DNA of 64,000 nucleotides. Origin: Raineyella sp. W15-4 (GTDB lineage: Bacteria; Actinomycetota; Actinomycetes; Propionibacteriales; Propionibacteriaceae). Shown here one piece after another: positions 13,814 through 23,284 of the stretch. How positions within the stretch are numbered: position 1 is the first letter of the stretch; each line of letters begins with the position of its first letter. Position numbers and translations under genes: made by a program. The stretch lies in contig NZ_CP137079.1 in the NCBI RefSeq assembly GCF_033170155.1, positions 3,720,001 to 3,784,000 on the forward strand, given 5' to 3'. The notes beneath the pieces are model-generated. The model did not search any database. It saw only the letters and a program-made list of their open reading frames with translations, and had not been told where the DNA came from.

Positions 13814-13860
13814 TCTCCGTCTGACAGCAGTGTCCTGTCCGACAGGAGTCCACGTACGTC

Positions 13861-13932
13861 GCCTGCGCGTTTCGCCCGCGCACTTGTGCTGGTAGTCCGA
13901 CAACAGCGCGCGGGCGAAACCCACCTGCGGGG
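13861..13932. repeat. 72-bp palindromic dispersed repeat, copy 1
   Basis: Outer arms GTTTCGCCCGCGC and GCGCGGGCGAAAC form a perfect 13-bp inverted repeat around a core containing TTGTGCTGGTAGTC. Related copies are at 22068-22139 and 23213-23284. It lies between the exonuclease gene and the leader-peptide promoter. The minus strand translates as a GFARALLSDYQHKCAGETR-like string that recurs in all copies. Confidence 0.85.
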
Positions 13933-14015: not shown

Positions 14016-14044
14016 TTGAATGGTTCGCTAAGCCGGTGTTATGT
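14016..14044 (+). promoter_or_regulatory. Sigma-70-type promoter for the Cys-leader operon
   Basis: TTGAAT at 14016-14021 and TTATGT at 14039-14044 are separated by exactly 17 bases in a locally A+T-rich patch. Transcription would start near 14051 and give a ~65-nt 5' UTR before the leader ORF. The rest of 13933-14015 shows no gene. Confidence 0.55.
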
Positions 14045-14117
14045 TTCTCCGCGTGGTGCTCCCGGGTGGTGCACCACCCGAGCCGCCCGGCGCCCTGGGC
14101 ACAGAGAGGGGTCTGTC

Positions 14118-14216
14118 ATGAGCCGATCCATCAGTGGTCCGAGCCATCTGACGGTGCCCGCCGCCATGCCCCGCTGCTGTTGTCGCTGTCGGCACTGCAT
14201 GCCGAGCGTGAGCTGA
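14118..14216 (+). CDS. Cysteine-rich leader peptide (predicted attenuator)
   Basis: A 32-codon ORF with a good ribosome site (GAGAGGGG, then ATG). Its C-terminal half contains CCCRCRHC, five cysteines in eight residues, just before MPSVS and the stop. Translation of such a run would stall when cysteinyl-tRNA is scarce. Cysteine-rich upstream ORFs that regulate sulfur genes by this logic have been described in mycobacteria. The ORF ends 259 bases before the URO-D-like gene, and GC-rich hairpins fill the gap. It probably acts in cis; the peptide itself need not have a function. Confidence 0.7.
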   Translation: MSRSISGPSHLTVPAAMPRCCCRCRHCMPSVS

Positions 14217-14217
14217 C

Positions 14218-14319
14218 CGCGCCGCCCCGGTCCGGGCGGGGGCATGGTCCCCGGCCTGAGCCACCCGATTCCCTGTCCTGAGCCACCCGCCCCACTCCGG
14301 GGAGCGGCTCGCCGCCCCG
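14218..14319 (+). promoter_or_regulatory. Leader-region hairpins downstream of the Cys-rich ORF
   Basis: CCGGGCGGGG...CCCCGG (about 14231-14260) and CGGGGAGCGG-CTCG-CCGCCCCG (14298-14319) can both form GC-rich stems. CCTGAGCCACCCG occurs twice nearby (about 14257 and 14278). These are candidates for alternative structures in an attenuator or for RBS occlusion. No U-run follows, so a classic terminator is not evident. Pairing was judged by eye. Confidence 0.35.
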
Positions 14320-14475
14320 TCCAGGGTGCTTCACGCGGGAAACAGCCTGGCCACAGCGCCGTACGAATAGTCCCATCGCCTCCTCTGGACCGTTCCAGAT
14401 CGTTAATTCCTACTCACCCAGTAGCTATTTCTTCGTCCAGTAGTCATGCCTCATCCACAGTTCAGGAGTTCCACC

Positions 14476-15639
14476 ATGGCAGTGCAGACCACGGCTGTCC
14501 CCGATGCCCCCACGGGCTCCGGTCCGGCTCCCGCCGACCGGCGCGCCGAGTTCGCCGTTCTCCTGCGCGGTACCCCGGCTCTGCAGCACGGCGATGCGAC
14601 CCAGCAGCACGGCGATGCGACCCAGCAGCACAACGACACGGCCGAGCACAGCGACCCGCCGCGGCGCTTCCTCACCAGTGCCTGGCAGCACTTCGTGGGC
14701 GAGGAGTACGACCCGGTCCGGTTCGCCACCGCGACCGTCGATTTCAACCGGACCTGGGACTGGGACTGGGTGAAGATCAACCCTCGCGCCGTCTACTACT
14801 CGGAGGCCTGGGGCGCGGTCTATGACCCCGACGACTACGTGGGCGTCATCCCCCGGCTCGTCTCACCGGCGATCGCCGGCGTCGCGGACCTGGCGACGGT
14901 CCGCCCGCTCGATCCGGCGACCAACCCGGTCCTGGCCGAGCACCTCACCTCGGCGGCCCTGATCCGCGAGCAGTTGCCGGACCGGGCCCTGCTCCAGACC
15001 GTGTTCTCCCCGCTGTCGGTGCTGCTGCAGCTGGCCGGCCTGCCGCTCTACCCGGGCGACGTCGTCCCCGGCGCCACCGTCGCCTTCTCGGCCGACGAAC
15101 TGCTGACGAGCGACCCCGCCGCGACCCACCGGGCGCTGGCCGCGATCGCCCGGACCCTCGGCGACTACGCCAGGCGTCTGGTCGCGCCGGTCGCCGCGGG
15201 AGGCGCCGGGCTCGACGGCATCTTCTACGCCGTCACCGGCACGGCGAACAGCGACCTCGTCGCTCGGGAGCTCTTCGAGGAGTTCTCCCGACCGTACGAC
15301 CGGCAGGTGCTCGACGCCGTCGGCGACGGCCTGGTGGTCCTGCACACCTGTGGCGCCGACTCGCACCCGGAGTGGTTCACCGACGACGGCGTCGACGCGC
15401 TGCACTGGGACCAGTTCCTGCCGGGCAACCCGCAGCTGGACACGCCCTTCGGCGTCACGGTGGTCGGCGGGGCGAACAAGGACCTGTTCGGCGTCGACGG
15501 CGACCCCGCAGAGGTCGCCGCCCAGCTCGCGGCGACCCTGGCCGCGGCACCGGACCGCCCCTTCCTGCTCGCGCCGAGCTGCACCGTCCCGACCCCGGCC
15601 GACCCCGCCGCCCTGCGGCAGTTGCGGGACGCCGGCTGA
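14476..15639 (+). CDS. Uroporphyrinogen-decarboxylase-fold protein, predicted Zn methyltransferase
   Basis: A 387-aa protein of the URO-D superfamily (TTVFSPLSVLLQLAGLP-like core, VVLHTCGADSHPEW, LAPSCTVPTPADP). H290-x-C292 and C369 match the His-x-Cys...Cys zinc site of the MtaA/MtbA methyltransferase branch, which activates a thiol as methyl acceptor. The HemE substrate motifs are not obvious, so true haem synthesis is unlikely. Residues 37-60 hold a hydrophilic repeat (HGDATQQ) from a 21-bp DNA repeat. The ATG at 14476 has AGGAG upstream. It is the first gene after the cysteine-rich leader and precedes a Liv-type importer, which suggests handling of a sulfur- or methyl-bearing compound. 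The exact reaction is unknown. Confidence 0.7.
   Translation: MAVQTTAVPDAPTGSGPAPADRRAEFAVLLRGTPALQHGDATQQHGDATQQHNDTAEHSDPPRRFLTSAWQHFVGEEYDPVRFATATVDFNRTWDWDWVKINPRAVYYSEAWGAVYDPDDYVGVIPRLVSPAIAGVADLATVRPLDPATNPVLAEHLTSAALIREQLPDRALLQTVFSPLSVLLQLAGLPLYPGDVVPGATVAFSADELLTSDPAATHRALAAIARTLGDYARRLVAPVAAGGAGLDGIFYAVTGTANSDLVARELFEEFSRPYDRQVLDAVGDGLVVLHTCGADSHPEWFTDDGVDALHWDQFLPGNPQLDTPFGVTVVGGANKDLFGVDGDPAEVAAQLAATLAAAPDRPFLLAPSCTVPTPADPAALRQLRDAG
14583..14624. repeat. 21-bp in-frame tandem repeat
   Basis: CAGCACGGCGATGCGACCCAG occurs twice in tandem and adds two copies of QHGDATQ to the N-terminal region of the URO-D-like protein. Confidence 0.8.
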
Positions 15640-15760
15640 CCCCGGCGGGTGCCGCCGGGCTCCTCGCCGCATGCCGGCACCGCACCACGACCCGACCCGA
15701 CCCGCGACACACCTGACCCGACACCACGACCCCTCCCCCCGACACCTCGAGGAACCCACC

Positions 15761-16924
15761 ATGAAGCCCTTCACCACTTCCGCGCGGCGACTCGCCGCGC
15801 TCGTCCTCACGGCGGCCACTCTGGCCACCGCAGCCTGCTCCTCCTCGGCCACCGCCGGCGGCGGCTCCGGCACCGACCCGGTCTATTTCGGCGTCTCCTC
15901 GGCCACCACCGGCCAGTACGCGCAGTACGGACAGCAGTTCAAGGAGGCGTTCGACCTCGCCGTCGAGCAGGTGAACGCCAACGGCGGCATCAACGGCCGC
16001 CCGGTGGCCCTCAAGTACGAGGACTCCCAGTCCGATCCCAAGCAGTCGGTGACCGTCGCGCAGAAGTTCGTCGCTGACAAGGACGTGGTCCTGGCCTTCG
16101 GTGACTACTCCTCGGCGGCCTCGATCCCCGCCTCGCCGATCTACACCTCGGGCAAGCTCGTCCAGTACGGCTTCAACAACTCCAACCCGGCCTTCACCGA
16201 GAAGGGCACCGAGTACCAGTGGTCGACCTCGATCACCACCACCGCGAACTACCAGTGGACCGCGGACTACCTCAAGAAGCAGGGCGTCAAGTCGGTCGGG
16301 GTCACCTACCTCAACACCGCCGACTGGGGCATTCCCGCCTTCCAGGCCTTCAAGGCCGAGGCCGAGAAGGTCGGCCTGACGATCACCGACGCTGAGGGCG
16401 TGCTGGACACCTCCGACGACTACCGGCCCTCGCTGACCAAGGCGGTGGCCGGCAAGCCCGAGGCCTTCGTCCACATCGGCTACGGGCCCGACGCGGCCAA
16501 GCTGGTGACCCAGCTGCGCGCCATCGGCTACCAGGGCACCTTCTACGGCGGCCAGGACGAGAAGTCGTTCGACGGTACGCCGGACGCCGCCGGCTCGATC
16601 ATCGCCGCCCAGTTCATCGAGACCAGCACCGACCCGAAGGTGAAGGCGTTCGTCGACGCCTTTAAGCAGAAGTACCCCAACGAGCAGCACGTCACCCTCT
16701 TCGAGGCCACCGCGTACGACGCGCTGAACGTCGCCGTGGCGGTCGCCAAGCAGGGTGGCCCCACCCGGGAGGGCATCCTCAAGGGCTTCGGGGAGGTCAA
16801 GGACGTCCCGAGCGTCATCTACGGCTCGATCACCTTCGACCCGGCCACCCGCCGCGTACAGGACCCCAGGCTCACTCCGACCATCCTCAAGGATGGTAAG
16901 TGGGTCGAGTACAAGACCGCCTGA
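15761..16924 (+). CDS. Liv-type ABC transporter substrate-binding lipoprotein
   Basis: A 387-aa periplasmic-binding-type lipoprotein. The signal sequence ends in a lipobox-like ATLATAACSS with the modified Cys near residue 26, so it is anchored outside the membrane. The mature part follows the branched-chain amino-acid-binding family: PVYFGVSSATTGQYAQYGQQFKEAFDLAVEQVN..GGINGRPV near the N-terminus. It captures the substrate for the permease encoded next. The family binds amino acids, amides, urea and other small molecules, so the ligand is not fixed by homology. A longer open frame upstream lies in the URO-D-like gene and the spacer, and is rejected. Confidence 0.9.
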   Translation: MKPFTTSARRLAALVLTAATLATAACSSSATAGGGSGTDPVYFGVSSATTGQYAQYGQQFKEAFDLAVEQVNANGGINGRPVALKYEDSQSDPKQSVTVAQKFVADKDVVLAFGDYSSAASIPASPIYTSGKLVQYGFNNSNPAFTEKGTEYQWSTSITTTANYQWTADYLKKQGVKSVGVTYLNTADWGIPAFQAFKAEAEKVGLTITDAEGVLDTSDDYRPSLTKAVAGKPEAFVHIGYGPDAAKLVTQLRAIGYQGTFYGGQDEKSFDGTPDAAGSIIAAQFIETSTDPKVKAFVDAFKQKYPNEQHVTLFEATAYDALNVAVAVAKQGGPTREGILKGFGEVKDVPSVIYGSITFDPATRRVQDPRLTPTILKDGKWVEYKTA

Positions 16925-16942
16925 TCGGTCCGTCTGCCCACC

Positions 16943-18745
16943 ATGCTCGACACACTGATCGCCGGCCTGCTCCGAGGCAACGTCTACGCCCTCGGAGCGG
17001 TCGGCATCTCCCTCGTCTTCGGCGTCATGAACGTCATCAACTTCGCCCAGTTCTCCTTCTTCGGGCTGGGCGCGATGCTGGCCTGGTTCTTCGTGGCCCA
17101 ACTGGGCCTGCCCTTCGGCCTCGCCCTGCCCCTGGTGATCGTCATCTGCGCGGCGCTGGGACTGGTGATCAACCTCACCGTGGTGCGGCCGTTGGCCCAG
17201 TTCCTGCCGCTGGCGGCGATGTTGTCCACGTACGCCGTCTCGCAGATCCTCGACAACGCCTCGCAGATCGCCTTCACCGCCGAGTTCCGGGTCTTCCCCC
17301 AGGTGCTGCCGACCTCCAACCTGCACATCGGGAACATGCGGTTCGGCACCTCGGACCTGGTGATGCTGGGCGTCACCGCCGTCGTGATGGTCGCCATCGG
17401 CGCCTTCCTCAAGTACGGGAAGATCGGCCAGGCGATCCGTGCCACCGCCCAGGACCAGGAGGCCGCGCTGCAGATGGGCATCCCGGTCGGACTGGTGCAG
17501 CACGTGGCGTTCGTCATCGCCTCCGCGCTGGGCGGCCTGGCCGGCGTCTTCATCGCGCTGTACGTCGGGGTCGCCAACCCGACCTCGGGCCTGAACACCG
17601 GGATGACCGCGTTCGTCGCCGCCACCCTCGGCGGGCTGGGGTCGCTGCTCGGCGCGGTCGTCGGTGGCTTCGCCCTGGGCATCCTGGAGGCGTTCGGGAT
17701 CCACTTCTTCGGTGACTCGGCCCGCGAGATCATCACCTTCGCCATCCTCATCCTGGTGCTCATCGTCCGGCCGGGCGGACTGCTCGGCAAGGTGCCGCTG
17801 ATCTCCACCGAGCCACTCACCGGCACGTTCCTCGGCAAGGGCCGCCCGCTGCAGGTCCCCCGCTGGGTGTGGCCGGTCGCCCTCGTCGTCGGCGGCATCG
17901 TCATCCCGCTGGTGGCCGGGGACTACGTGCTCACCACCGGCACCCAGGTGCTCATCTACGCCATCATCGCCGCCGGCTTCACGGTCACCGCGGGACAGGC
18001 GGGGGTGATGGCGCTCGGCCAGGCCGGGTCGATCGCCATCGGCGCGTACGCGTCGGCGCTGCTGACGCTGCACTCACCGATCTCGTTCTGGGCCGCCATC
18101 CCGATCGCGGGGCTCATCGCAGCGATCATCTCGTCGATCCTGGCCTCGCCGATCTGGGGTGTGAAGGGGCACTACATCTCCATCGCCACCCTCGGTGTCG
18201 GGACGGTCATCGTGGCCGTCATCCGGCTGGCGGTGCCGCAGGGCATCTACGGCATCCCGATGCCGTCGTGGGGTGACACGCTGCTCGCGACCCCACGCGC
18301 CTACTACCTGATCGACTTCGCGGTGCTGGTGGTGACGCTGCTGGTGATGTGGCGGATCCGCGGGTCGCACCTGGGCAAGGTGATCTCCTCGGTGGGCTCC
18401 GACGAGGTGGCGGCGCTGGCCTCCGGCGTCCGGGTCCGGGACTACAAGGCCCTTGCCTTCGCCGTCTCGGCGTTCTTCGCCGGCGTCGGGGGCTCGCTGC
18501 TGGCCCACCAGTACACCTACATCGACCCGACCATCTTCACGATGCTGATGTCCCTGCTCGTCGTCACCATCGTCATCATGGGCGGCGTCAGCCTGCCCTA
18601 CGGCGCCGTCGTCGGGGCGATCATCCTGATCGGCGCGATGGAGTTGCTCCGGTTCACCCCGGAGCTGCGGATCATCGTCTACGGCCTGGTGCTGATCCTC
18701 GTGGTGAGGTTCCGTCCGGGCGGAATCCTGGTGAGGAACTCATGA
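16943..18745 (+). CDS. Fused LivH-LivM ABC permease
   Basis: A 600-aa membrane protein that joins both permease subunits of a branched-chain amino-acid-type importer. Residues ~1-290 are LivH-like (GISLVFGVMNVINFAQFSFF; ATAQDQEAALQMGI coupling loop; GLGSLLGAVVGGFALGILE). Residues ~310-600 are LivM-like (AGQAGVMALGQAGSIAIGAY; SDEVAALASGVRVRDYKALAFAVSAFFAGVGGSLLAHQY coupling region). In most bacteria these are two genes. It overlaps the next ATPase gene by four bases (ATGA). Confidence 0.92.
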   Translation: MLDTLIAGLLRGNVYALGAVGISLVFGVMNVINFAQFSFFGLGAMLAWFFVAQLGLPFGLALPLVIVICAALGLVINLTVVRPLAQFLPLAAMLSTYAVSQILDNASQIAFTAEFRVFPQVLPTSNLHIGNMRFGTSDLVMLGVTAVVMVAIGAFLKYGKIGQAIRATAQDQEAALQMGIPVGLVQHVAFVIASALGGLAGVFIALYVGVANPTSGLNTGMTAFVAATLGGLGSLLGAVVGGFALGILEAFGIHFFGDSAREIITFAILILVLIVRPGGLLGKVPLISTEPLTGTFLGKGRPLQVPRWVWPVALVVGGIVIPLVAGDYVLTTGTQVLIYAIIAAGFTVTAGQAGVMALGQAGSIAIGAYASALLTLHSPISFWAAIPIAGLIAAIISSILASPIWGVKGHYISIATLGVGTVIVAVIRLAVPQGIYGIPMPSWGDTLLATPRAYYLIDFAVLVVTLLVMWRIRGSHLGKVISSVGSDEVAALASGVRVRDYKALAFAVSAFFAGVGGSLLAHQYTYIDPTIFTMLMSLLVVTIVIMGGVSLPYGAVVGAIILIGAMELLRFTPELRIIVYGLVLILVVRFRPGGILVRNS

Positions 18746-19638
18746 TCGACACACTGCCGCTGGAAAGTGACCCACCGGTGAGAAGCCACGCCCTGCTGGA
18801 GGTCGAGGACCTCGAGCGCCAGTTCGACGGCCTGAAGGCGGTGGACGGGATCTCGTTCACCGTGGCGCCCCGGGAGGTGGTGTCGATCATCGGGCCGAAC
18901 GGCTCGGGCAAGACCACCACCCTCAACCTGGTGACCGGCACCATCCCGCCGCACGGCGGGCGGATCGCCCTCGACGGCGTCCGCATCGACCATGCCGACA
19001 CCGCGCGGATCGCCGAGCACGGCGTCGCCCGTACGTTCCAGAACGGTCGGGTCTTCGCCACCCTGTCGGTGGCGGACAACGTCGAGGTGGGGCTCCACTC
19101 GACACTGCACGCCAGCCGCCCGTTCCGGCGGCTGTCGCACCTGTTCGGGCTGCGCTGGATCGCGCTGCTCGGGGAACTGTTCATCGCGATCATCGGCACC
19201 CCGGCCTCGCGGCGGGAGCGCCGGCAGATCGACGCCACCGTCGAGACCGAGATCCACCGCTTCGAGGACCGGCTGGGCCCGCGCCGTGACGACCCGGCCT
19301 ATTCACTCAGCTACGCCAACCGGCGGCGCACCGAGATCGCCCGGGCGCTGGCGCTGCAGCCCAAGCTGCTCGTCCTCGACGAGCCGACGGCGGGGATGAA
19401 CCCGTCCGAGACCGCCGAGGTGCTCGAGCAGCTGCTCGAGCTCAAGGCTGCGGGACAGGCCATCCTCCTGGTGGAGCACAAGCTCGACCTGGTGATGGCG
19501 GTCTCCGACCGGATCATCGTGATGGACGGCGGCCGGATCATCGCCCAGGGGCCGCCGGAGGCGGTGCGTCACGATCCGGCGGTGGTCGAGGCCTACCTCG
19601 GGCGCCGTCGCGGACTCGGAGGAGTGGTGCTCGGATGA
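18742..19638 (+). CDS. Liv-type ABC transporter ATPase (LivG-like)
   Basis: A 298-aa ATP-binding subunit. Walker A is GPNGSGKTTT near residue 54. The signature region is YSLSYANRRRTEIARAL (the LSY-type signature typical of LivG), and Walker B is LLVLDEPTAGM, followed by the H-loop LLVEHKLDLV. An insert after VEVGLHSTLHASR matches the LivG-specific loop. It powers uptake together with the LivF-like subunit. ATG at 18742 overlaps the permease stop. Confidence 0.93.
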   Translation: MIDTLPLESDPPVRSHALLEVEDLERQFDGLKAVDGISFTVAPREVVSIIGPNGSGKTTTLNLVTGTIPPHGGRIALDGVRIDHADTARIAEHGVARTFQNGRVFATLSVADNVEVGLHSTLHASRPFRRLSHLFGLRWIALLGELFIAIIGTPASRRERRQIDATVETEIHRFEDRLGPRRDDPAYSLSYANRRRTEIARALALQPKLLVLDEPTAGMNPSETAEVLEQLLELKAAGQAILLVEHKLDLVMAVSDRIIVMDGGRIIAQGPPEAVRHDPAVVEAYLGRRRGLGGVVLG

Positions 19639-20399
19639 GCGGATCCGGTCTGAACGGAGCCAGTGTGAGCACAAGCGACCTGCTGGCCCTCGATGACGTG
19701 CACGTCTACTACGGCCCGTTCCACGCGCTGCGGGGCAACACACTGCGGGTCGGGCAAGGGGAGATCGTCTCCCTGCTCGGCGGCAACGCCAGCGGCAAGT
19801 CGACCACGATGAAGACCATCCTCGGGCTGGTCCGGGTGCGGTCCGGGGCCGTACGTTTCGAGGGGAAGGACATCACCCACACCTCGACGAGCCATCGGGT
19901 CAGGGCCGGCATCGCGTCGGTGCCCGAGGCACGGCGGGTGTTCCCGCAGATGACCGTCGACGAGAACCTCCTCGCCGGCGCCTACACCCGGCGGGACAAG
20001 GCCGGCATCGCCGAGGACCTGGAGCGGATGCGGGATCACTTCCCGCGCCTGGCCGAGCGCCGCCGCCAGGAGGCCGGCACGCTCTCGGGCGGGGAACAGC
20101 AGATGCTCGCCTTCGCCCGGGCCCTGATGAGCCGTCCGACGCTGGTCTGCATGGACGAGCCGACGATGGGACTGTCCCCGAAGCTCGTCGACCAGGTGCT
20201 TGACGAGATCGTACGGATCAACAAGGAGCTCGGCGTGGCGGTGCTGTTCGTCGAGCAGCAGGCCGAGCTCGCACTCTCCATCGCCTCCCGGGGCTATGTG
20301 CTGGCGACCGGGGAGATCGTGCTGCACGGGGCGGCCGCCGAGTTGCTCGACAACCCCCAGGTCCAGGAGGCCTATCTCGGAAAGGCAGTGCGGGGGTGA
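19635..20399 (+). CDS. Liv-type ABC transporter ATPase (LivF-like)
   Basis: A 254-aa ATP-binding subunit. Walker A reads GGNASGKSTT (Ala-Ser replacing the more common G-A/S-G), the signature is GTLSGGEQQMLAFARALM, and Walker B is LVCMDEPTMGLSP. The A-loop Tyr is in VYYGPFHAL. It pairs with the LivG-like ATPase as a heterodimer. The gene overlaps livG by four bases, so transporter subunits are translationally coupled. Confidence 0.93.
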   Translation: MSGSGLNGASVSTSDLLALDDVHVYYGPFHALRGNTLRVGQGEIVSLLGGNASGKSTTMKTILGLVRVRSGAVRFEGKDITHTSTSHRVRAGIASVPEARRVFPQMTVDENLLAGAYTRRDKAGIAEDLERMRDHFPRLAERRRQEAGTLSGGEQQMLAFARALMSRPTLVCMDEPTMGLSPKLVDQVLDEIVRINKELGVAVLFVEQQAELALSIASRGYVLATGEIVLHGAAAELLDNPQVQEAYLGKAVRG

Positions 20400-20527
20400 C
20401 CGTGACGAGCCACCGGCGCCACGACCCTGAGCGGCGCCACGACCGCGGCCGCCACCAGGCACGGCCTCACGGCCCCGAAGGCGCCAAGGCCCACGCGAAC
20501 CCCACGACCGGGAAAGAAAGAGAGAGC

Positions 20528-21190
20528 ATGACCACGCTTCCTGTCGATCATCTCGTCTTCCTGGTGCCCCACATCGACGACTATGCCGACGAGTTCGCCC
20601 GCGTCACCGGGGTGGCTCCGGTCTTCGGCGGCGTCCACGCGGGCAAGGGCACCAAGAACTATCTCGTCCGCCTCGACGCAGGGGACGGAAATCCCGCCTA
20701 TCTCGAACTCCTCGGCCTCGACGATGCGCAGACCTACGTCCCTGCCGATGCCACGATGTTCCGGGTCGGCCGATACGGACCGGACCCGCGTCCGCACCTC
20801 ACGACCTGGGCGATCCACCCCGGAAACCTCACCAGCATCACCGCCACGGCAACCGCCAGGGGGATCCGTGTCGGGGCTGTCGAGGAATGGTCCCGCAACG
20901 CTCCCGACGGATCCGTCCTCGAATGGAGTGTCGCCATCCACCCCGACCTGCCGCTGGGGGGCCTCCAGCCCTTCCTCATCGACTGGGGAACCACTCCTCA
21001 CCCATCGACGAACCCGCGACTCGGCACCATCACCCTCGCGGGACTCCGGTTCGAACATCCCCGCCCCGAGACGCTCGCCCGGGCCCTTGCCGGCCTCGGC
21101 CTGAGCGACATCCCACCGATCGGCCTCGGGCTCGTCCCGACCATCATCGCCACCATCGACACGCCCCACGGGCGTCTCGAGCTTCGCTGA
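20528..21190 (+). CDS. VOC/glyoxalase-like domain protein
   Basis: A 220-aa protein of the glyoxalase-like type (Glyoxalase_3-like). LPVDHLVFLVPHIDDYADEFARVTGVAPVFGGVHAGKGTKNYLVRL is the first paired beta-alpha-beta-beta motif, with His in DHLVF and Glu in YLELLGL as likely metal ligands. A second half follows from about residue 110. Members include dioxygenases, isomerases and binding proteins. I choose ATG 20528 after GGGAAAGAAAGAGAG; an upstream GTG at 20396 overlapping the livF stop would add 44 low-complexity residues rich in Arg and His. Its place in the operon suggests it acts on the imported compound. Confidence 0.7.
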   Translation: MTTLPVDHLVFLVPHIDDYADEFARVTGVAPVFGGVHAGKGTKNYLVRLDAGDGNPAYLELLGLDDAQTYVPADATMFRVGRYGPDPRPHLTTWAIHPGNLTSITATATARGIRVGAVEEWSRNAPDGSVLEWSVAIHPDLPLGGLQPFLIDWGTTPHPSTNPRLGTITLAGLRFEHPRPETLARALAGLGLSDIPPIGLGLVPTIIATIDTPHGRLELR

Positions 21191-21214
21191 CTCACGGGAG
21201 AGGACAGGAGAGCC

Positions 21215-22009
21215 ATGAGTCACCGCCTCGGCATCATCGGATTCGGTCAGATGGGCGGCGCCATCGGCACCGGCCTCGTCACCAACGGCGCACTCCCGGC
21301 CGGCGATATCGTCGCCTGGGACATCGCCGCGCCCGCGCGCCACCGCGCGCAGGCCGCCGGGATCAGCATCCTCGGCGGCATCCCTGACGTCTGTCGGGCC
21401 GCTGACATCATCCTGCTCGCCGTCAAGCCCCAGGATGCCGCCGGTGCGCTCGAGCAGGCAGCTGGAAGCCTCGCCGGCAAAGCCCTGCTCTCTGTCGTCG
21501 CCGGCTGGAGCACTGACACGCTCGCCGAGCACCTCGCGTCCGGGGCCCGCCTCCTCCGGATCATGCCCAACACTCCTGCGCAGGTGGCCGCCGGTGCTTT
21601 CGGCCTGTCCGAGGCAGCCACCATCACCGACACCGAACGCAGCGACATCGAACACTGGTTCGACACCATCGGCCTCGTCGAATGGGTGCCCGAACAGCTC
21701 ATGGACGCCGTCACCGGCCTCTCCGGAGGAATCCCCGCCTACATCGCCATCGTCATCGAGGCCCTTGCCGACGGAGGAGTCCAGCAGGGCCTCAAACGAC
21801 CCGTCGCGCTGCGTCTCGCCACCCAGGCCGTACTCGGCAGCGCGAAACTCCTCCTCGACACCGGACAACGTCCCGGGGCGCTCAAGGATGCCGTCTGTTC
21901 CCCCGGCGGAACCACCATCGAGGGGGTCCGTGCACTCGAGCGGTCCGGCTTCCGCTCAGCACTCATCGAAGCGGTGGTGGCCGCCTCGGAAAGAGCGCGA
22001 CAGCTGTAG
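21215..22009 (+). CDS. Pyrroline-5-carboxylate-reductase-like protein
   Basis: A 264-aa NAD(P)H reductase. LGIIGFGQMGGAIGTGL is the Rossmann loop, and LRIMPNTPAQVAAGAFGL and VTGLSGGIPAYIAIVIEALADGGV are the ProC substrate and dimer motifs. VCSPGGTTIEGVRALE is the conserved C-terminal signature (usually VTSPGGTT). ProC normally reduces pyrroline-5-carboxylate to proline. Its location 24 bases after the VOC gene, at the end of the transporter operon, suggests reduction of a cyclic imine in a catabolic or salvage pathway instead. A housekeeping proC role is the alternative. Confidence 0.8.
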   Translation: MSHRLGIIGFGQMGGAIGTGLVTNGALPAGDIVAWDIAAPARHRAQAAGISILGGIPDVCRAADIILLAVKPQDAAGALEQAAGSLAGKALLSVVAGWSTDTLAEHLASGARLLRIMPNTPAQVAAGAFGLSEAATITDTERSDIEHWFDTIGLVEWVPEQLMDAVTGLSGGIPAYIAIVIEALADGGVQQGLKRPVALRLATQAVLGSAKLLLDTGQRPGALKDAVCSPGGTTIEGVRALERSGFRSALIEAVVAASERARQL

Positions 22010-22067
22010 CGGCAAGCAGTATCGACCGGTAACCCGCGTCGGCCCGGATCCCGGGTCTATCTGCGTC

Positions 22068-22139
22068 GCCTGCGCGTTTCGCCCGCGCACTTGTGCTGGT
22101 AGTCGAGCACAAGTGCATGGGCGAAACCCGCCTGCGGAG
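22068..22139. repeat. 72-bp palindromic dispersed repeat, copy 2
   Basis: The first ~37 bases, through the GGTAGTC core, equal copy 1 (13861). Here the whole element can fold: GTTTCGCCC pairs with GGGCGAAAC, and GCACTTGTGCT pairs with AGCACAAGTGC inside it, around a GGTAGTCG loop. It sits between the convergent ends of the ProC-like and AbiEi/DUF559 genes and may act as a bidirectional terminator, although no T-run is present. Confidence 0.85.
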
Positions 22140-23212: not shown

Positions 23213-23284
23213 GGGTTATGCGTTTCGCCCACGCATCTGTGCTGGTAGTCAGACACAACCGCGCGGGCGAAACCCACCCGCAGG
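23213..23284. repeat. 72-bp palindromic dispersed repeat, copy 3
   Basis: Same orientation as copies 1 and 2, more diverged: GTTTCGCCC...GGGCGAAAC arms and the TGTGCTGGTAGTC core are kept. The minus-strand reading still gives GFARAVVSDYQHRCVGETH. It lies between the start of the AbiEi/DUF559 gene and the end of the radical SAM gene. Confidence 0.8.

Follow-up and report, generated by a model that had tools for sequence, protein, structure and literature searches.

Short upstream open reading frames (ORFs) with runs of cysteine codons are described as translation attenuators of mycobacteria in the consulted parts of two papers (PMC13236596, PMC9031893), and cysteine-rich leaders also figure in those of two others (PMC9094748, PMC4633059). 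Core methionine synthases, in turn, hold zinc with the ligands H, C, E or D, and C, and one of them, MesD, works without B12, as stated in the consulted part of PMC7857596. Here we analyze an operon of Raineyella sp. W15-4 in which a Cys-rich leader ORF precedes the genes of a UROD-superfamily enzyme, a Liv/HAAT-type importer, a VOC protein and a ProC-type imine reductase. The operon lies in a stretch of 64,000 nucleotides (nt), bases 3720001-3784000 of a single-contig genome of 3.96 Mb, which we call the window.

Comparison with related loci inclines us slightly towards a cysteine-starvation operon that would import and process a thioether- or thiol-containing amino-acid-like compound. The Liv importer would take up a sulfur amino-acid derivative, the zinc of the UROD-fold enzyme would bind a thiolate, and the enzyme would transfer a methyl or alkyl group directly between this thiol and the imported compound, in Bifidobacteria at least without corrinoid. 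What remains of the carbon skeleton would be handled by the VOC and ProC proteins. A sequence-only reading of this DNA had pointed out a promoter-like element, a Cys-rich ORF of 32 codons, seven co-directional genes reaching to position 22009 and 4-base gene overlaps, all of which were confirmed by the sequence itself, Pfam and NCBIfam (Table 1). The overlaps are ATGA in both cases, at 18742-18745 between the permease and the LivG-type ATPase and at 19635-19638 between the two ATPases. With a binding protein, two permease domains and two ATPases, the importer is complete in one operon.

Conservation of the cysteine-rich leader

Our sample comprised 147 genomes of Propionibacteriaceae, 26 of which hold a UROD homologue at E 0.001; in 12 of them the gene of a Liv-type binding protein comes after UROD. 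The importer order is the same in nine of these 12 loci, with all five genes; the other three follow it until their contigs end. Leaders were scored with a strict test, an ORF of 8-40 codons with at least three Cys within 8 codons in the 520 nt upstream of UROD. Eight of the 12 loci pass, where dinucleotide shuffles (302 of 3600 passing) predict 1.0, and in all eight the Cys cluster falls inside the last 14 codons. Lack of conservation of the leader and the gene order in relatives had been set as a refutation test by the sequence-only reading, and both the eight leaders and the recurring UROD-Liv order speak the other way. The eight are not fully independent, because L033 and L035 are close relatives. 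Missed by the test are L038 (three Cys, more widely spread), L040 (none seen), L041 (a weaker candidate) and L032, where the frame and the N-terminus of the leader are the same and two Cys are left. In a control set of 148 upstream regions (ten sequences, ORFs called crudely) 11 pass, four of them UROD leaders, which leaves 7 of 144 others.

Conservation is concentrated in the leader: among four close relatives, identity is 86% in the ORF, 59% in the DNA before it and 49% in the spacer after it. Cys clusters are also found at the same place in the dissimilar leader sequences of L036, L039 and L042. The same holds outside the family, where two Alloscardovia loci (L070, L082) show GTTTAWAGTTRCAACCATG followed by ORFs of 30 and 26 codons that end in Cys-rich runs. 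By their sequence, the leaders of L036, L039, L070 and L082 look leaderless.

The 17-nt spacing of the promoter-like element upstream of the leader is kept in the same-genus loci, which read TTGAAC-N17-TTATGT (L032) and TTGATT-N17-TTATGT (L040). A generic promoter scan found 0 promoters and did not report the TTGAAT-N17-TTATGT element. Downstream, the UROD gene most likely starts at 14476 (MAVQ...), because both the CAGGAG at 14463-14468 and a MAVQ/MSVQ start are common to relatives; 14446 is merely its first in-frame ATG.

The UROD enzyme and its gene neighbourhoods

The HxC...C signature of a zinc-type site, proposed from the sequence at the outset, proved to be invariant: H300, C302, D322 and C379 (numbered from the start at 14446, P0001) are the same in 46 of 46 sequences. 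The spacing of these residues is similar to that of the core methionine synthases, and in a profile alignment with a MetE-like protein the HxC motifs of the two proteins, and likewise their C residues, fall opposite each other at low probability (7%). The assignment of D322 as a putative acidic ligand rests on this spacing and on the weak alignment. An AlphaFold model of the enzyme is confident (mean predicted local distance difference test score, pLDDT, 88.3), and its closest folds are UroD and MtaA, then MetE. No NCBIfam HemE model was among the three hits at E 0.001, though UroD is the closest fold. Only PF01208 was matched and the core methionine synthase domain PF01717 was not; against TIGR01463, the MtaA/CmuA family, the score is 21.9 bits, below the cut-off of 235.4. 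A 21-nt tandem repeat at 14583-14648 encodes QHGDATQ repeats in a low-confidence part of the model; it is missing from most aligned relatives, and L032 has a shorter stretch.

Genomes of Bifidobacteriaceae bear on the question of the cofactor. The enzyme probably works without corrinoid in this family, because a B12-binding domain over cut-off was found in 0 of 24 of its genomes. MetE is present in 22 of the 24; both Alloscardovia genomes are without it, yet keep UROD, the importer and the poly-Cys leader, so the system there is independent of MetE and of B12-binding MetH. As these two genomes (those of L070 and L082) have neither a MetE N-terminal domain nor a B12-binding domain over cut-off, they may be without any known methionine synthase.

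The wider neighbourhoods were collected by scanning species genomes with the UROD alignment, the best 79 of 130 relatives being 8 Propionibacteriaceae (already counted), 30 Bifidobacteriaceae and 41 Bacilli. The order UROD, binding protein, permease, ATPase, ATPase recurs in 26 of the 30 Bifidobacteriaceae loci. A divergent ProC-type gene adjoins UROD in 8 of the 30, and a VOC gene occurs in the same 8; in L081 the VOC gene is on the plus strand, about 4.6 kb upstream. Bacilli combine UROD with another importer: 32 of 41 loci have the order MetN, MetI, UROD, MetQ, ProC, VOC, often after GntR, pyridoxal-phosphate (PLP) enzyme and M20 genes. Clustering of neighbours gave, out of 41, VOC 40, MetQ 38, ProC 37, MetI 37, GntR 30, M20 26 and PLP 13, and tblastn found ProC in 40 of 41. 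In the Bacilli locus L122 a PLP enzyme, a protein with the MetE catalytic domain and ProC score over their NCBIfam cut-offs, a MetN-like ATPase and a MetQ-like protein score below theirs, and Pfam matches NIL, NlpA lipoprotein and Glyoxalase_3. Four of the 41 loci carry an S-adenosylmethionine (SAM) riboswitch, three by Rfam (L101, L122, L093) and one (L110) by a model built from those three; it immediately precedes UROD in L093 and is found ahead of the gene series in L101, L110 and L122. The role in sulfur amino-acid metabolism that had been put forward from the window thus gained independent support from the MetNIQ-type neighbours of Bacilli, these four riboswitches, and the recurrent Cys/Met PLP enzymes and M20 amidohydrolases. 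A T-box in L093 (18692-18937) is on the other strand and was set aside as not linked to UROD.

The sequence-only reading had treated the operon as a set of six proteins, which was too strict: the core of UROD and importer stood, while ProC and VOC are recurrent and exchangeable. Eight other family loci extend past LivF, and in none of them was the VOC-ProC pair found after UROD-Liv; the window ProC falls in another clade than its counterparts. In a tree of 32 rows the ProC-like proteins of Bacilli and the divergent ones of Bifidobacterium form one clade; the window ProC (P0007) groups first with its three relatives in the family and next with two further ProC of Bifidobacterium, apart from the housekeeping ProC of the family. 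By this tree, the ProC found alongside UROD in Bacilli and Bifidobacteria is not its orthologue. The window ProC scores 262.1 bits against the cut-off of 196.75 of the pyrroline-5-carboxylate reductase model TIGR00112. A housekeeping role was considered for it and rejected: elsewhere the genome has a second proC over cut-off, beside an ORF that looks glutaredoxin-like by eye, and P0007 does not belong to the clade of this second proC. Four genomes that gave no UROD match have VOC homologues (66-69%) adjoined, in the same order, by a ProC homologue: G033, G047 and G063 (ProC 67-69%) and G076, where the ProC match is fragmented. With a crude ORF caller that overlooks genes, no UROD or Liv-type genes were recognised beside those pairs. 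Kept as a unit in this way (L181-L184), VOC and ProC are possibly a functional pair of their own. That different ProC lineages pair with UROD, along with VOC, suggests, short of proof, that their chemistry is needed.

Further UROD-like genes came to light in the same surveys. In five family loci (L047-L051) a second UROD-like class follows Liv-type importer genes; its zinc site differs, because HLH or HVH replaces HTC. In two Bifidobacterium loci the main UROD gene has another, more divergent copy close by (L063:4117-6463, L066:2107-3057), and the copy of L063 has its own binding protein. The same-genus operon L040 (G061) shows frame breaks in UROD, binding protein and permease and no leader ORF. 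Its reading as a decayed operon was not retained: a sequencing or assembly error is likely, because the listed ProC match of that genome is also a fragment. A wide spread of UROD in the class was likewise dismissed, with 1 of 394 genomes at E 1e-40, the window itself, in a sample of unspecified order make-up.

The coordinates of the operon are collected in Table 1. It is closely flanked by two copies of a palindromic interspersed repeat (13848-13930 and 22055-22137), a third being at 23220-23281; the repeat has 20 matches at 15 places in the genome, and the copy at 22055 folds far better than shuffles (z -6.5 as DNA).

Table 1. Elements and genes of the operon, in positions of the window
Feature	Position	Strand	Basis or remark
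Promoter-like TTGAAT-N17-TTATGT	14016-14044	+	TTGAAT 14016-14021, TTATGT 14039-14044; like element in both other same-genus loci
Shine-Dalgarno-like GAGAGGGG of the leader ORF	14104-14111	+	Sequence; purine-rich AGGAAG-type stretches at the same place in relatives
Cys-rich leader ORF, 32 codons	14118-14216	+	ATG 14118 to TGA 14216; MSRSISGPSHLTVPAAMPRCCCRCRHCMPSVS, CCCRCRHC near the end
Untranslated C-rich, G-poor spacer	14217-14475	+	C/G 1.58; rut-like by composition only
UROD-superfamily enzyme with zinc-type ligands	14476-15639	+	Pfam PF01208
Liv/HAAT-type substrate-binding lipoprotein	15761-16924	+	Pfam Peripla_BP_6
Fused LivH-LivM permease	16943-18745	+	Two BPD_transp_2 stretches (Pfam, NCBIfam)
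LivG-type ATPase	18742-19638	+	ABC_tran (Pfam, NCBIfam)
LivF-type ATPase	19635-20399	+	ABC_tran (Pfam, NCBIfam)
VOC protein	20528-21190	+	Pfam Glyoxalase_3 family
ProC-type imine reductase, second of the genome	21215-22009	+	P5CR_dimer/F420_oxidored; TIGR00112

Mode of control and alternative explanations

Several findings weigh against a cysteine-starvation operon of the kind proposed. Leader control is not universal, because the leader of the same-genus genome G022 keeps only two Cys and that of G061, an error-prone or decayed locus, has none. Across the 30 Bifidobacteriaceae loci, Bifidobacterium proper is without a convincing poly-Cys leader (weak candidates in L087 and L063), and no second poly-Cys leader was established in the window's own genome by a pattern search in which 20 of the 25 other sites were read. 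The pattern, TGYTGYTGYNNNTGY, occurs at 26 sites, the leader among them, whereas the reversed control occurs at 38; L192, L199 and L203 also showed short ORFs containing Cys runs, and a similar one at L188 was rejected, being antisense to an ORF judged coding by eye. Shuffled sequences fold as well as the leader RNA (z 0.58). Codon differences among leaders (21 pairs of seven) count 293 nonsynonymous versus 71 synonymous; because the changes are mostly nonsynonymous and Cys and Arg codons swap places, what is kept is a Cys cluster and not one peptide. With the model used, 37 of the 41 Bacilli loci lack a SAM riboswitch, so that its role as a general control in Bacilli was rejected, on a three-sequence model that may miss divergent members. 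As to the enzyme, B12-binding matches below cut-off occur in 11 of the 24 Bifidobacteriaceae genomes, and B12-binding proteins are present in the window genome and in both Bacilli genomes tested.

What a Rho-dependent leader attenuator would display in composition was found, namely a C-rich, G-poor untranslated stretch after the leader stop and no intrinsic terminator. No intrinsic-terminator-like site lies in the leader, the only one of the region being inside the permease gene; Rfam matched no known RNA family in the window, and small hairpins after the leader stop vary between species. The spacer has a C/G ratio of 1.42-2.0 in 10 of 10 loci (L040 and L041 of the 12 were excluded, having no clear leader), a value reached by 0 to 4.3% of random segments of equal length from the same locus. 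For 50 upstream intergenic regions, each 150 nt long, the ratio has a median of 1.09; seven reach 1.42, four of them UROD regions, leaving 3 of 46 others. In tnaC, the stalled ribosome covers the Rho site. Because the spacer composition and the Cys codons near the stop resemble tnaC, the analogy suggests Rho-dependent attenuation as the preferred reading. With ample Cys-tRNA the ribosome would complete the leader and depart, Rho would load on the C-rich spacer and transcription would end; with scarce Cys-tRNA it would stall at the Cys codons near the stop, shield the start of the Rho site and let the operon be read. Doubtful by comparison is translational attenuation, in which stalling at the Cys codons would open a structure that masks the Shine-Dalgarno sequence of the first gene. 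This is the mechanism given for M. smegmatis in the consulted parts of papers citing Canestrari 2020 (PMC13236596, PMC9031893), and the CAGGAG of UROD is kept in four aligned relatives. A masking structure of this type is at odds with the 169 to 351 nt between leader stop and first gene start, with the weak conservation of the spacer and with the poor fold of the leader noted above.

The two remaining alternatives concern the chemistry and the substrate. The UROD protein could be a corrinoid-dependent methyltransferase of the MtaA/Mlp type, which would obtain its methyl group from methylcobalamin or from a corrinoid protein encoded elsewhere. The HxC...C site would suit such an enzyme, and among the fold matches MtaA (4ay8) ranks third, behind two human UroD entries, with the highest target-normalised TM-score listed (0.75); the B12-binding domains of the window genome and of the two Bacilli genomes point the same way. 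We regard it as unlikely, for the protein scores far under the MtaA/MtbA family cut-offs and the 24 Bifidobacteriaceae genomes keep UROD with no B12-binding domain over cut-off. The window genome has three such domains, the nearest about 128 kb off and none inside the window, a negative obtained without a family-by-family search of the neighbours, or a gene-by-gene one of the Bacilli clusters, for corrinoid proteins. Still less probable is that the operon imports a branched-chain amino acid or some common methyl donor, and that its Cys codons are incidental or encode a small metal- or redox-binding peptide. The solved chains closest to the binding protein are indeed named branched-chain amino-acid binders. 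Against this stand the recurrence of Cys clusters at one place in dissimilar leaders (the MSRS-type, L036, L039, L042, Alloscardovia) and, in Bacilli, the MetNIQ-type importer and the four SAM riboswitches.

Comparison with described systems

The cysteine-starvation operon may be one member of something wider. It is quite possible, if tentative, that Actinobacteria and Bacilli share a corrinoid- and folate-independent family of UroD-fold zinc methyl- or alkyltransferases, which would free or rebuild the sulfur of an imported thioether amino acid together with a ProC-type imine reductase and a VOC enzyme. The family would be under two unrelated sulfur sensors, a poly-Cys and probably Rho-dependent leader in Propionibacteriaceae and Alloscardovia and a SAM riboswitch in some Bacilli. 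If true, this would add a sulfur-scavenging pathway for Bifidobacteria, Propionibacteriaceae and Bacilli, give a function to a branch of the large UroD superfamily to which none is assigned, and extend attenuation by Cys codons past mycobacteria, possibly carried out by Rho. The question of the substrate would also become directly testable, because the same genes would be under two unrelated sensors. In the titles and abstract beginnings searched, no paper was found that describes the set of UROD with Liv, or of UROD with MetNIQ, ProC and VOC; a term search in the consulted part of a B. longum sulfur paper (PMC11540073) gave none of the terms.

As in the mycobacterial poly-Cys leaders reported by Canestrari et al. 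in 2020 and described here after the consulted parts of citing papers, a conserved short upstream ORF with adjacent Cys codons precedes sulfur-related genes. The present leader differs in belonging to another family and another operon, and in a C-rich spacer that suggests Rho rather than masking of a Shine-Dalgarno sequence. Judged by its sequence, it also departs from the leaderless mycobacterial prototypes, as far as these are portrayed there: the start codon of the ORF lies 74 nt downstream of the -10-like element and is preceded by GAGAGGGG. The leaderless-looking versions in L036, L039, L070 and L082 are closer to the mycobacterial form in this respect.

On the enzyme side, type 1 mlp gene clusters, as presented in the consulted part of Kountz and Balskus (PMC10418091), likewise combine a UroD-superfamily enzyme with a proposed methyl-sulfur metabolism. 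Unlike those clusters, the window has one UROD protein and no B12-binding domain, and its scores are far under cut-off. With the core methionine synthases MesA-D, as described in the consulted part of Price et al. (PMC7857596), the enzyme shares HC(E/D)C-type ligands and the lack of a folate domain, whereas those synthases belong to PF01717 and the window enzyme to PF01208. The importer, finally, resembles the MetNIQ and Liv ABC importers in its component families and their order, and is distinguished from the known ones by its coupling to a UROD enzyme with ProC and VOC.

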